The position numbers and the translations under genes were made by a program. Positions 12,081 through 58,674 of a stretch of 64,000 nucleotides of DNA are shown here, piece by piece. Source of the stretch: Haloglomus salinum (GTDB lineage Archaea > Halobacteriota > Halobacteria > Halobacteriales > Haloarculaceae); assembly GCF_024298825.1 (NCBI RefSeq), contig NZ_CP101153.1, positions 558,001 to 622,000 of the forward strand, given 5' to 3'. Every line of letters begins with the position of its first letter. The stretch's first letter is position 1. The notes under the pieces are model-generated. The model was not told the DNA's origin. It ran no database searches and saw only the letters and a program-made list of their open reading frames with translations.

Positions 12081-12449
12081 ATGAAGGTACTGCTGGGCGT
12101 CGGTGGGAGCGACGACTCGCTCCGAGCGCTGGAGCGCGCCGTCGAACGAGCCCGAGAGGCCAGCGACGAGTTGACCGTCGCCGTCCTCGACAACCCGGAG
12201 AGCGCCGCCGCCGTCGACGATGTCGAGGAACGGGTCCGAGACACGCTCGCGGCGGCTGATGTCGACGCCGCGGTCCGGCGGCTGGAGGGCGACCCCGGCA
12301 GCCGGCTCGTCGACGTGGCCGAGCGCGAGGGCTTCGACCGCATCGTCCTCGGCGGCGGCGAGACCAGCCCGCTCGGGAAGATCCAGCTCGGGAGCATCGC
12401 GGAGTTCGTCGTCCTGAACGCCAGCGTCTCGGTCACCCTCGTCAGATGA
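12081..12449 (+). CDS. Universal stress protein (UspA) domain protein
   Basis: 122 residues with a single Usp domain: an N-terminal MKVLLGVGGSDDSLRAL strand and loop, and a C-terminal GGGETSPLGKIQLGSIAEFVVLNA segment in the position of the G-x2-G-x9-G(S/T) nucleotide-binding motif. The spacing in this segment departs a little from the canonical motif, so ATP binding is not certain. It overlaps the downstream GNAT gene by 4 nt (ATGA), implying co-translation. The general role is stress-related nucleotide-dependent signalling; the specific role is unknown. Confidence 0.82.
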   Translation: MKVLLGVGGSDDSLRALERAVERAREASDELTVAVLDNPESAAAVDDVEERVRDTLAAADVDAAVRRLEGDPGSRLVDVAEREGFDRIVLGGGETSPLGKIQLGSIAEFVVLNASVSVTLVR

Positions 12450-12991
12450 CTCGCGACTACCCCGACACGGTCGCCGGACCGTACGAACCGCCGCCGCGAA
12501 CGTTCACCGACCGCGCCGACCGTGAGCTCACCATCCAGGTGTACGGCGAGGGGCCCCGCGACGACCTCGAAGCGCTGGTGGAGATGTACGAGGGCTACGA
12601 CCCCGAGGACCGCGCCCAGGGCATCCCGCCCGCCGGCGAGGAGCGCATCCGGAGCTGGCTCGACACCATCACCGACGACGACTGCCACAACGTCGTCGCG
12701 TGGCACGACGACTGGCCGGCCGGCCACGCCACGCTCGTCCCGGACCGCGGCGGCGCCTACGAACTTGCCATCTTCGTCGACAGCGACTACCAGAACGCCG
12801 GCATCGGCACCCAGCTCATCGAGGGCCTGCTGGGTCACGGCCACGACATCGGCATCGAACGGGTGTGGCTCACGGTCGAACGCTGGAACGAACCCGCCAT
12901 CAGCCTCTACCACAAGGTCGGCTTCGAGCGAACCGGCGACGGCAGCTTCGAACTCGAGATGACGGCACGGCTAGTGGAAGAAGCGGAGTAG
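12446..12991 (+). CDS. GNAT-family N-acetyltransferase
   Basis: 181 residues. The GNAT fold is recognisable from the acceptor-side strand ELAIFVDSDYQNAGIGTQLIEGLL, with the acetyl-CoA pyrophosphate-binding motif Q/R-x-x-G-x-G/A present as QNAGIGT, followed by WLTVERWNEPAISLYHKVGFE, the typical beta-4/alpha-4 end. It starts inside the stop of the UspA gene (ATGA overlap). The first 40 residues are unusual for a GNAT and might contribute to substrate choice. The acceptor cannot be predicted. Confidence 0.83.
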   Translation: MTRDYPDTVAGPYEPPPRTFTDRADRELTIQVYGEGPRDDLEALVEMYEGYDPEDRAQGIPPAGEERIRSWLDTITDDDCHNVVAWHDDWPAGHATLVPDRGGAYELAIFVDSDYQNAGIGTQLIEGLLGHGHDIGIERVWLTVERWNEPAISLYHKVGFERTGDGSFELEMTARLVEEAE

Positions 12992-13040
12992 GCGGTCGAC
13001 TCCGTCTTCGAAGATTCTGGTAGATTCGGCGACAGCCAAA

Positions 13041-13285
13041 CCATCTACGAAGCCCTCCTACCTCATCACAACGACAGTAACGAATGGTCCACCTACGAAG
13101 CCCTCCTACCTCATCACAACGATAGTAACGAATGGTCCACCTACGAAGTCCTCCTACCTCATCACAACGATAGTAACGAATGGACCACCTACGAAGCCCT
13201 CCTACCTCATCACAACGATAGTAACGAATGGTCCACCTACGAAGTCCTCCTACCTCATCACAACGATAGTAACGAATGGACCACC
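13041..13285 (+). repeat. 48-bp tandem repeat array (five units) ending at dispersed element A
   Basis: Five head-to-tail units of exactly 48 bp follow one another without spacers. Copies differ only at a few positions (GCC/GTC, GGT/GGA, GAC/GAT). Each unit contains TACGAAG(C/T)CCTC, at 13046, 13094, 13142, 13190 and 13238; the next occurrence 48 bp further on (13286) is the tip of the dispersed element. The unit length is a multiple of three and two forward frames stay open, one reading the 16-residue unit YEALLPHHNDSNEWST. There is no start codon with promoter that would make this a convincing gene. Confidence 0.9.
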
Positions 13286-13801
13286 TACGAAGCCCTCGCG
13301 CTCTCGACCACTCCGGGACTCGCTGCGGTCCTCGGCCTCACTCCGTTCGGCCTGCGGTCCTTGCGTCGTCCGGGAGGGACCGAGAGCGCTCGCCCTTCGA
13401 TTCCGCCAGGAACGTGGAACGTGTCACGGAGCGGCACCCCTGCCCTTCCCCAGGTCGCGCGGGTTCGCCCGCAAGGGGCTCACCACGCGCTCCCGGCCGG
13501 GGAGTGGTTGCCCGATTTTCGGTTCCGGGACCAGGAAGCGCGCGGGCGCGCCCCGGGTGAGCCCCGAGCCAACGGCGAGGGGGCGAACCCTCACGCCGCG
13601 CCCGCGCGGGGAGGTGTGGGGGCGCTAGCGCTCCGCTGGAACCAGCACCCCCAGACACGCGGCCGGAGAACCGAGTCCTGGCGGACTCGAAGGGCGAGGG
13701 CTCTCGACTCGCACGCCTCGCTGCGCACTTCCCTCGCTCCCGATGGTCGCTCGGTGCAGTGCTTGCGTCGTCGTGCTTCGCCGAGAGCGCGAGGCTTCGG
13801 A
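13286..13801 (+). repeat. Dispersed structured repeat element, copy A
   Basis: About 516 bp bounded by imperfect inverted ends (TACGAAGCCCTCGCGCTC on the left, its near reverse complement ending at 13801). Nested inside is a second inverted pair, CGATTCCGCCAGGA (13398) and TCCTGGCGGACTCG (13676). Two cores, GGTTCCGGGACCAGGAAG (13521) and GGGGAGGTGTGGGG (13608), are identical in copies B and C. Copy A has the same orientation as C and the opposite of B. It also holds short perfect palindromes such as GCGCTAGCGC. Long frames run through it but overlap each other on both strands; no protein family is recognised. It resembles a non-autonomous, MITE-like or structured repeat. From 13802 to 13931 the DNA is AT-rich with no gene seen. 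Confidence 0.8.
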
Positions 13802-13931
13802 GGAGGTTGTATCGCACTCTGCAGAAGTATCTTCAGTATAGATTTCACCTTGAAAGCCGACAATATCTGAACAGAATCTGCCACGCAAAACAGAAGAGAC
13901 CAATCCGAAGAAAATATCGCAGGTTCAGCAG

Positions 13932-14519
13932 TTACGGCGTCTCGCCCGTCTCGAGCGACAGGTCGTCCGTCGGATGGGCCACGCAGGTCAGCGTGTAGCC
14001 GTCGTCCAGCTCCTCCTGCCCCAGCATCTCGTTGTTGGAGTGGATGATGTAGTCGTCCGTGGCGCCGTTCGTGATGTGGCCCGCACAGGAGACACACTGG
14101 CCCTCGCGGCAGGCGTAGGGGAGGTCCCAGCCCTCGTCCTCGCCGGCCTCGAGCAGCGTCTCGTTCTCCTTGACCTCGACCGTCTCACCCTCCTTGACGT
14201 ACTCGACCTCGAAGACCTCGGCCTCGTCGTCCGGGATGACCGACGGGTCGTCGGAGGGGTCGACCTCCTCCTCTTCGTCACCGAGTTCGCCGGCGGCCTC
14301 GCCCTCGGCGCCACCGACGGCGGCGACCGCGCCGCCACCGCCGATGGAGCGGTTCATCGGTTCCGCGAAGTCCGTCTCGGGTACCTGTGCGGCCCGCCGC
14401 TCGGTGACCTCCTGTGCGATGTCGTCCGGGATGGACTTCTCCGTCCCCTTGGAGAAGTGGATGCCAATCACGAGGAGGGTCAGCGTCGCCCCCAGCGCGA
14501 CGGCGAGTGCATCGACCAT
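13932..14519 (-). CDS. Membrane-anchored 2Fe-2S ferredoxin
   Basis: 195 residues: an N-terminal hydrophobic helix (about 3-22), a variable acidic linker (to about residue 105), then a plant-type ferredoxin domain. The cluster ligands are visible as CREGQCVSC (the CxxxxCxxC signature) plus a distal cysteine in YTLTCVAHP. It is an electron carrier tethered to the inner membrane face. It is unlike the soluble Halobacterium-type ferredoxin at 54642, which has an extra acidic domain and no helix. It lies next to dispersed element A; the AT-rich spacer 13802-13931 sits at its 3' side. Confidence 0.85.
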   Translation of the reverse strand: MVDALAVALGATLTLLVIGIHFSKGTEKSIPDDIAQEVTERRAAQVPETDFAEPMNRSIGGGGAVAAVGGAEGEAAGELGDEEEEVDPSDDPSVIPDDEAEVFEVEYVKEGETVEVKENETLLEAGEDEGWDLPYACREGQCVSCAGHITNGATDDYIIHSNNEMLGQEELDDGYTLTCVAHPTDDLSLETGETP

Positions 14520-45404: not shown

Positions 45405-45600
45405 CATCAAGCGGGTCGGGCAATCCGGGCGCGGTATCGCACCGCGTGACGGTTCGGCCAGCGCGACACGACCGACCCGTCGCCGGTGGGAGTTCGTGGG
45501 CTCCCGCAGTGTCGCCTGTTCGCTAGACTGGGATGGTAGTGGTGGCGATGGAGACTTCGCTTCCCTCGCGCTCTCTCACGAACGCGACGGCAGGGACCGC

Positions 45601-46180
45601 TACGAAGCCCTCGCGCTCTCGACCGTCCGGGAGTCGCTGCGCTCCTCGCTCACTACGTTCGCTCCGGTGCTTGCTTCCTCCGGGACGAATCGAGAGCGCT
45701 CGCCCTTCGAGTCCGCCAGGGGGCTATTGCTCGGCCGAGCGTTCGTGCGTGGTGGTTCCACCGGAGCGCTAGCGTCCCCACACCTCCCCGCGCGAGCGCT
45801 GTGGTGGCTCCGCACGGCGCTGAGGCGCCGGCTCCGCCAGTGGTGGCGCTCGCCGCGCTTCCTGGTCCCGGAACCAACTGGCCGACCAGCCGCTCGGCTG
45901 GTGCGTGCTCGTCCGTCAGTCGTACCGGCGCGCGCTGGCAGCTGTGCCGCAGGCCAGCCGCCGCTACACGTGCGAGGGCCGAGAAGCGTCGTGCGAGAGA
46001 GCTTCGCTCTCTCGTGATCTCGAAAATCGAAGATTTTCGGCGACAGAGCGGGACTCCGTCCCGCTTGCAGTCGGACGTAGTCCGACGACAGCGTAGCGAG
46101 CATCGCAGGCGGTTGGAGAGGTGTGAGGCTCACGGACCCGGCTGACCAGCGTGCGGTCCTGGCGGCCTCGCCCTTCGGTA
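45601..46180 (-). repeat. Dispersed structured repeat element, copy B
   Basis: Begins with the same tip TACGAAGCCCTCGCGCTC on the plus strand (45601); the left inner repeat CGAGTCCGCCAGGG (45708) pairs with TCCTGGCGGCCTCG (46157). The cores CCCCACACCTCCCC (45776) and CTTCCTGGTCCCGGAACC (45858) are exact reverse complements of those in A and C, so B is inverted relative to them. The right outer tip is degenerate (near 46180). B carries about 250 bp not present in C, which include the hairpin array at 45994. The stretch just upstream (about 45565-45600) also matches the flank right of copy C. Confidence 0.75.
45994..46086. repeat. Array of four perfect hairpins with three-base loops
   Basis: Four consecutive stem-loops: arms CGAGAGAGC/GCTCTCTCG (45994-46014, loop TTC), CGAAAATC/GATTTTCG (46021-46039, loop GAA), AGCGGGAC/GTCCCGCT (46047-46065, loop TCC) and GTCGGAC/GTCCGAC (46070-46086, loop GTA). 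Stems are 7-9 bp and perfect, loops always 3 nt, spacers 4-7 nt. Chance alone does not produce this. It lies inside dispersed element B; no oligo-T follows, so it is not an ordinary terminator. Confidence 0.85.
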
Positions 46181-51068: not shown

Positions 51069-51304
51069 GCGCGCTCACCCCGACCCGGGGGCTCCCCGGT
51101 CTCGACTGCAGTCATTACCGCCCCGTAGCCTCCACCGGTTGCTAAACGTTTCGGGCGAAATCACCGGACAGCGCGGGTGTGCGTGCGAACGGGCGGGCGC
51201 GAGAGCGCGACGGACGCGTGTCCGGGGGCGCGCCGGACGCGAGCGTGTGGGGCGGGTGAGTGGGCGCCCGGGCCCGCACCCGGGCACGCGCGCGAGGACT
51301 ACTT

Positions 51305-51367
51305 CGTACTCGGCGAACAGTTACTCGTACTCGGCGAACAGTTACTCGTACTCGGCGAACAGTTCGT
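51305..51367. repeat. 21-bp tandem triplication of a gene 3' end
   Basis: Three consecutive 21-bp copies of CGTACTCGGCGAACAGTTAC-type sequence (51305, 51326 and 51347). On the minus strand each copy reads LFAEYE; the copy inside the gene is followed by a stop (TAA), and the next copy again reads LFAEYE then TAA, so the end of the DUF3194 gene including its stop codon is repeated. The outermost copy lacks the stop. It looks like a recent slippage duplication. Confidence 0.85.
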
Positions 51368-58260: not shown

Positions 58261-58337
58261 ACGACCGAGACACCTGAGCCGACGACGGAAACACCTCACC
58301 CCACGACGGAAACACCTCACCCCACGACGGAAACACA
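58261..58337 (+). repeat. 21-bp tandem repeats adjoining dispersed element C
   Basis: A degenerate first unit (58261) is followed by two exact 21-bp copies with ACGACGGAAACACCTCACCC (58282 and 58303) and a partial fourth (58324) that runs directly into the element tip TACGAAG at 58338. One frame reads repeated TTETPHP. The preceding spacer 58170-58260 shows no gene. Confidence 0.85.
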
Positions 58338-58674
58338 TACGAAGCCCTCGCGCGCTCCGATTCCGCCAGGATCCAGCTGTTCCACGGGCGCTGTGGCCCT
58401 GCCCTTCCCCAGGTCGCGCGGTCTCGCGGGCAAGCCGCTCGACACGCGCTCCCGGCCGGGGAGCGGCTGGTCGGCCGGCCGGTTCCGGGACCAGGAAGCG
58501 CGCTCGCGCCATCTGGCGGAGGCCGCGAACGCTAGTGAGCGTGCCGGAGCCCACTCGGCGCGAGTGCGGGGAGGTGTGGGGCCACCCTGCTCGCCCGGAA
58601 CCACCACGCGCGAACGCTCGGACGGACAACGGACTCCTGGCGGAATCGAAGGATGAGAGCGCGGGGGCTTCGTA
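58338..58674 (+). repeat. Dispersed structured repeat element, copy C (most compact)
   Basis: 337 bp. Left end TACGAAGCCCTCGCGC and right end (58657-58674) are inverted repeats with 16 of 18 bases matching. The inner pair CGATTCCGCCAGGA (58358) / TCCTGGCGGAATCG (58635) is a perfect 14-bp inverted repeat. The cores GGTTCCGGGACCAGGAAG (58481) and GGGGAGGTGTGGGG (58568) are identical to copy A and separated by the same 87 bp. No target duplication and no transposase. The flank to 58788 contains the leader of serS. Confidence 0.82.

Follow-up and report, generated by a model that had tools for sequence, protein, structure and literature searches.

The 48-bp tandem array at 13041-13297 of the window (the whole 64-kb stretch of Haloglomus salinum DNA analysed here) is probably a minisatellite whose unit is the end module of a palindromic, transposase-less dispersed element of MITE- or BOX-like kind, this module having multiplied by slippage or unequal recombination. 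The result connects a minisatellite with the ends of a repeat that is widespread in haloarchaea, puts variable-number markers on offer for the typing of Haloglomus strains, and places the repeats at chromosomal rearrangement junctions. It also poses a clean testable question, namely a multiple-of-three rule that extends across genera on sequence which is otherwise not coding-like.

Anatomy of the array and its element

The 12-mer TACGAAGYCCTC occurs at 13046, 13094, 13142, 13190, 13238 and 13286, and these six tip sites and their step of exactly 48 bp agree to the base with what an earlier, sequence-only reading of this DNA had reported. Tandem Repeats Finder returns the array as 13041-13297 (period 48, 5.4 copies, 95% match, score 472), the top-scoring tandem repeat in the window, and TACGAAGYCCTC with at most one mismatch has 11 matches in the window against 0.62 expected from shuffling. 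The array does begin at 13041, as that reading had it, but it ends at 13297 and not at 13309, since 13298-13309 are already element sequence. The features of the array, of the neighbouring genes, and of the three copies of the element family in the window (A, B, and C) are as follows.

12446..12991, plus strand: neighbouring gene for a GNAT-family acetyltransferase (PF00583, E 1.8e-19)
13041..13045, plus strand: outermost edge of the array, where degenerate leader GGCGACAGCCAAACCATC precedes the units (placed from the leader consensus)
13046..13285, plus strand: five 48-bp units, each with the 12 conserved tip bases TACGAAGYCCTC and a diverged remainder of tip and leader
13286..13808, plus strand: element A, a GC-rich nested-palindrome intergenic repeat of ~520 bp (genome recurrence, fold, inverted repeats)
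13286..13305, plus strand: type-1 tip of element A, TACGAAGCCCTCGCGCTCTC (block conserved across 201 distinct tips)
13381..13411, plus strand: left arm of the main internal inverted repeat of element A (31 nt, 94% complementary to 13676-13706)
13676..13706, plus strand: right arm of the main internal inverted repeat of element A
13700..13790, plus strand: segment whose orientation is reversed in the H. halophilum orthologue of element A (95% identity)
13784..13803, minus strand: right-end tip of element A, inverted and imperfect, TCCGAAGCCTCGCGCTCTCG, shorter by one base than the left-end tip
13932..14519, minus strand: neighbouring gene for a protein with a 2Fe-2S ferredoxin domain (PF00111, E 2.5e-15)
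45556..45600, plus strand: single degenerate 45-bp end module ahead of element B
45601..46170, plus strand: element B, of the same family as A (right edge approximate)
58261..58336, plus strand: leader array without tip, 21 bp x 3.6, ACGACGGAAACACCTCACCCC, adjoining element C
58338..58674, plus strand: element C, with type-1-like tips in inverted orientation at both ends

Element A is intergenic, with the GNAT acetyltransferase gene on one side and the convergent 2Fe-2S ferredoxin-domain gene on the other, and its fold has a z of -5.5. The six tips of the window array are the maximum among the ends counted, and its unit length of 48 bp is the commonest one. The units retain the first 12 bases of the tip while the remainder has diverged from the element's own tip, and two of them carry GTC in place of GCC. 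Units 2+3 and units 4+5 have the same sequence, an exactly duplicated dimer of 96 bp, which implies that growth proceeded at least partly in multi-unit blocks, as slippage or unequal exchange would do. A 21-bp array had also been reported at the tip of element C, and it is indeed found there, at 58261-58336, abutting the tip at 58338, with units made of leader without tip. At 51304-51364, TCGTACTCGGCGAACAGTTAC is repeated perfectly in tandem (21 bp x 2.9), by inspection without relation to the tips. No known structured RNA family was recognised in 12900-14000, where Rfam 15 gave no match at E <= 1.

The repeated module is leader plus tip

In an alignment of 201 distinct type-1 tips, 20 bp are conserved as a block, and the ~25-30 bp on its outer side follow a weaker consensus, approximately GACRRCGACGACGGARACACC, which fades into unrelated flank without a sharp boundary. 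An element end is thus composed of a degenerate, triplet-rich leader (RRC type, ~25-30 bp) followed by the conserved 20-bp tip. Because the leader is conserved outside single tips as well as outside array tips, the sequence between the tips of an array is leader, and the repeat unit is leader plus tip. The element had been said to end at 13286, and the tip there does open the element, although weak conservation reaches ~25-30 bp farther out. A second end type, type 2 (GTTGAAAGCCCCCGCCCGCTC), is built like the first and forms similar arrays.

Distribution of the element and of tandem ends

The exact 12-mer TACGAAGYCCTC is present 53 times in the 4.19-Mb chromosome, and its reversed control is present zero times. 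DNA of element A (13286-13808) recurs across the H. salinum genome in 90 matched pieces, mostly at 71-92% identity, and has matches in three other genomes of the genus; from other haloarchaeal genera just segments match when element A is the query, and among named genomes the 21-bp tip is limited to Haloglomus species and one Halobacteriales metagenome bin. Dozens of element loci are found in the H. salinum genome, short, non-coding and intergenic, with ~260-700 bp between exact-tip pairs. In many copies the two ends carry tips in inverted orientation, which match imperfectly and in some cases belong to different types. Searches of the open-access literature turned up no description of these elements in haloarchaea and nothing relevant on Haloglomus repeats.

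Two or more tips, counted at a fixed mismatch threshold, are carried by 30 of 93 H. salinum ends, by 21 of 94 from H. halophilum, and by 14 of 41 from a third genome (G001) whose ends were partly picked for arrays; the ends were sampled through ~190 fetched loci, a non-exhaustive set, and the counts of the three species are not independent because orthologous ends are common to the genomes. Most ends have one tip only, and tandem modules stand at about one-third of the H. salinum ends examined, which answers whether the same tip arrays occur at other copies. Of the 78 Haloglomus tandem tip arrays examined, 77 have element core no more than 700 bp inward of their last tip. This sustains the proposed tie of the array to the element, and arrays standing apart from any element, the case raised against that tie, did not turn up, the lone exception lying beside a very short element. 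Unit lengths in Haloglomus range from 36 to 61 bp. At L003 the element has four tips at either end, of type 1 with a spacing of 51 bp on one and of type 2 with a spacing of 54 bp on the other, and these two arrays are independent.

Beyond the genus, a strict tandem type-2 pattern was recovered from 14 of 293 Halobacteriales genomes, which represent 7 genera and five families, with zero in the reversed control and up to 43 tandem type-2 pairs in one of these genomes. The tandem type-1 pattern was confined to H. salinum and one other genome in a sample that lacked other Haloglomus genomes. In a genome of another family, five or more 54-bp type-2 units, all identical, follow one another at G103:C1:1889829-1890111.

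Change between species

Unit numbers, which the sequence-only reading had suggested comparing, differ at orthologous ends when species are compared with species rather than strain with strain, with counts that hinge on the mismatch threshold for degenerate tips. The end in the window has six tips and its orthologue in H. halophilum two, making one 57-bp unit of different sequence; the counts are 2 vs 3 tips at L014/L085 and, for either end of L003/L169, 4 vs 2, and other ends differ too. At L083 of H. halophilum, three identical 48-bp units lie beside an element, units and element carrying the tip variant TCCGAAG in common, and the H. salinum site (L177) is without the element.

Two adjoining modules would offer near-identical tips for replication slippage or unequal recombination to act between, and modules could then be gained or lost singly or in blocks. 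The L083/L177 pair, the unit differences at orthologous ends, and the dimer in the window together form the pattern that slippage or unequal exchange would give, and repeated copying of the tip would not be needed. As for the element, the likeliest reading is a non-autonomous interspersed repeat of MITE/BOX-like kind, with copies that also recombine among themselves.

Other changes were observed at element loci. The 91-bp internal segment 13700-13790 is inverted in H. halophilum at G002:C1:515575-515665 (minus strand in a plus-strand locus, 95% identity). At L179 of H. salinum (G000:C1:2779600-2781700), where H. halophilum has a full element (L107), a scar joins both tips, ACCTACGA/GGGCTTCG, with the leader retained, which from the comparison appears to be a near-precise loss of the palindrome. 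Much shortened copies stand where the orthologue is long at L087/L178, L003/L160 and L106/L181, indicating that internal deletion is frequent. Both flanks were mapped for 61 loci, and in 3 of these the flanks of a single element in a relative lead to two different element loci of H. salinum: L111 (G001:C1:3416500-3419800), L118 (G001:C1:4540900-4543700) and L129 (G003:C28:100800-103600), with counterparts at L001/L029, L028/L039 and L034/L040. Element copies thus lie at chromosomal rearrangement junctions, as would be expected from recombination between dispersed copies.

Multiples of three

In H. salinum, 37 of 44 tip-to-tip spacings are divisible by three, and in 24 of 30 arrays of that genome every spacing is (binomial 2e-7 under one in three). 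This observation was repeated by 18 of 18 spacings at held-out loci, fetched afterwards, and by 47 of 57 listed pairs outside the genus. The Haloglomus leader has an RRC triplet rhythm, a three-base compositional one, which makes triplet slippage a natural reading of these lengths; slippage within such a leader would shift unit length in steps of three. Spacers of G103 have little triplet composition, though their unit length is mostly 54, and with a leader that is not clearly triplet-like, triplet slippage would be a less natural account there.

Alternative explanations

The alternative that survives best, although we regard it as unlikely, takes the tip modules for putative binding sites of an enzyme (transposase, recombinase, or invertase) and the repeated end sites for functional ones, as the multiple end-binding sites of Tn7 and Mu are. 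The strong conservation of the 20-bp tip over 201 tips, the presence of modules at both ends, and the variation of elements by presence, by inversion of the internal segment, and by a nearly tip-to-tip loss scar would all accord with it. Unit number is nevertheless highly variable and a single tip suffices at most ends, and the window array has kept just the first 12 tip bases, with GTC for GCC in two units. Genes for Y1 transposases (PF01797), which are not tied to the elements, number 0-3 per genome (three in H. salinum, one each in G001 and G002, two in G103, none in the array-rich G139), so that a Y1 transposase as the obvious partner is unsupported. Less likely still is an order-wide haloarchaeal family in which tandem leader-and-tip modules would be putative recognition ends for a trans-acting enzyme, their multiple-of-three lengths being under constraint.

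A series of one-ended insertions or copying events at the tip, each adding one tip and its captured flank, is improbable. It would explain why every unit has a tip and why units match the tip variant of their own element, as at L083, but the sequence between tips is element leader and not random flank, the duplicated dimer requires block duplication, and the window units, diverged from the element's tip past base 12, were not freshly copied. The dimer is better matched by slippage or unequal exchange than by unit-by-unit one-ended copying. Of the two routes that the sequence-only reading had left side by side, one-ended copying or slippage seeded at the tip, it is slippage (or unequal exchange) that is favoured.

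Translation of the arrays, now or formerly, into peptide repeats such as YEALALSHDDSDDGDG would account for the multiple-of-three lengths across genera and for the three-base rhythm of the leader, and we consider it very improbable. Substitutions from unit to unit fall 15/10/8 by codon phase without an excess at the third position, stops between gene and tip (55/54/56) are not depleted in the tip frame, and some units contain stop codons; the reading was rejected on the absence of codon-phase bias and stop depletion. In the first set, type-1 tips appeared strongly coupled in phase to the neighbouring gene's stop codon, at 40/11/12, with flat internal-motif controls, and about 25 of 42 remained by hand count after orthologous sites were collapsed. 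At held-out loci, this coupling to the upstream gene fell to 7/5/6 for type 1, with 5/0/2 for type 2 from too few ends, and coupling of the tip to the neighbouring gene's frame was dropped on the type-1 result. A CRISPR-like array, which the regular alternation of a ~20-bp repeat with a ~28-bp spacer brings to mind, has practically no likelihood and was rejected, given that there are no unique spacers between repeats (they are near-identical within an array, 95% in the window and 100% at L083) and that the arrays are found at dozens of sites, each time at an end of a dispersed element.

Relation to known repeats

The array, as a minisatellite or VNTR, has tandem units within 10-100 bp and a copy number that differs between relatives, the relatives compared being species. 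The element, for its part, is short, non-coding, many-copy and intergenic and has terminal inverted repeats, as MITEs do. At the sites lacking a full element (L161, L162, L163, L177, L179), the intergenic flanks are too diverged for a target-site duplication to be read, and no inverted exact-tip pair longer than ~0.8 kb, as an autonomous relative would have, was found within a few kb in G000, G001 and G002 with exact 12-mer tips, which a diverged parent could escape. We do not file the element as a MITE because target duplications are unreadable and a parent with matching ends was not found; the MITE-like part of our reading draws on copy number, inverted tips, and presence or absence. REP/BIME sequences are intergenic palindromic repeats that form tandem arrays of variable number, and the Haloglomus arrays are similar in this variability but differ in that the array unit is not a palindrome, whereas the ~500-bp element is.

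Among haloarchaea, Haloquadratum walsbyi has transposase-free repeats (MITEs, SMRs, and PATEs), of which the SMRs are ~80-110 bp long, target other mobile elements, and have terminal inverted repeats, no target duplications, and an unknown mobilisation, according to the available part of that account (PMC3119063). The "SwitchRepeats" and core-deleted copies in the same part resemble the inversions and short copies of Haloglomus, while the tandem end modules of Haloglomus elements have no counterpart in what this part describes for H. walsbyi repeats (PMC3119063).

The BOX repeats of Streptococcus pneumoniae are transposase-less modular interspersed repeats with a variable tandem boxB, predicted stem-loops, and a proposed parasitic nature (PMC3049150). 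The Haloglomus element likewise is interspersed and transposase-less, and its tandem module varies in number, a likeness of architecture (PMC3049150). In the BrickBuilt/464-PgRS MITEs of Porphyromonas gingivalis, a 23- or 41-nt minisatellite unit stands between leader and tail, so that a minisatellite is again tied to a MITE-like intergenic element and its unit number varies among copies (PMC4596501). The repeated module of BOX is, however, internal to single, fixed ends (A-Bn-C), and the BrickBuilt unit likewise lies inside the element, whereas the module repeated in Haloglomus, 36-61 bp long, includes the tip, and thus the element end itself, and may be repeated at both ends.
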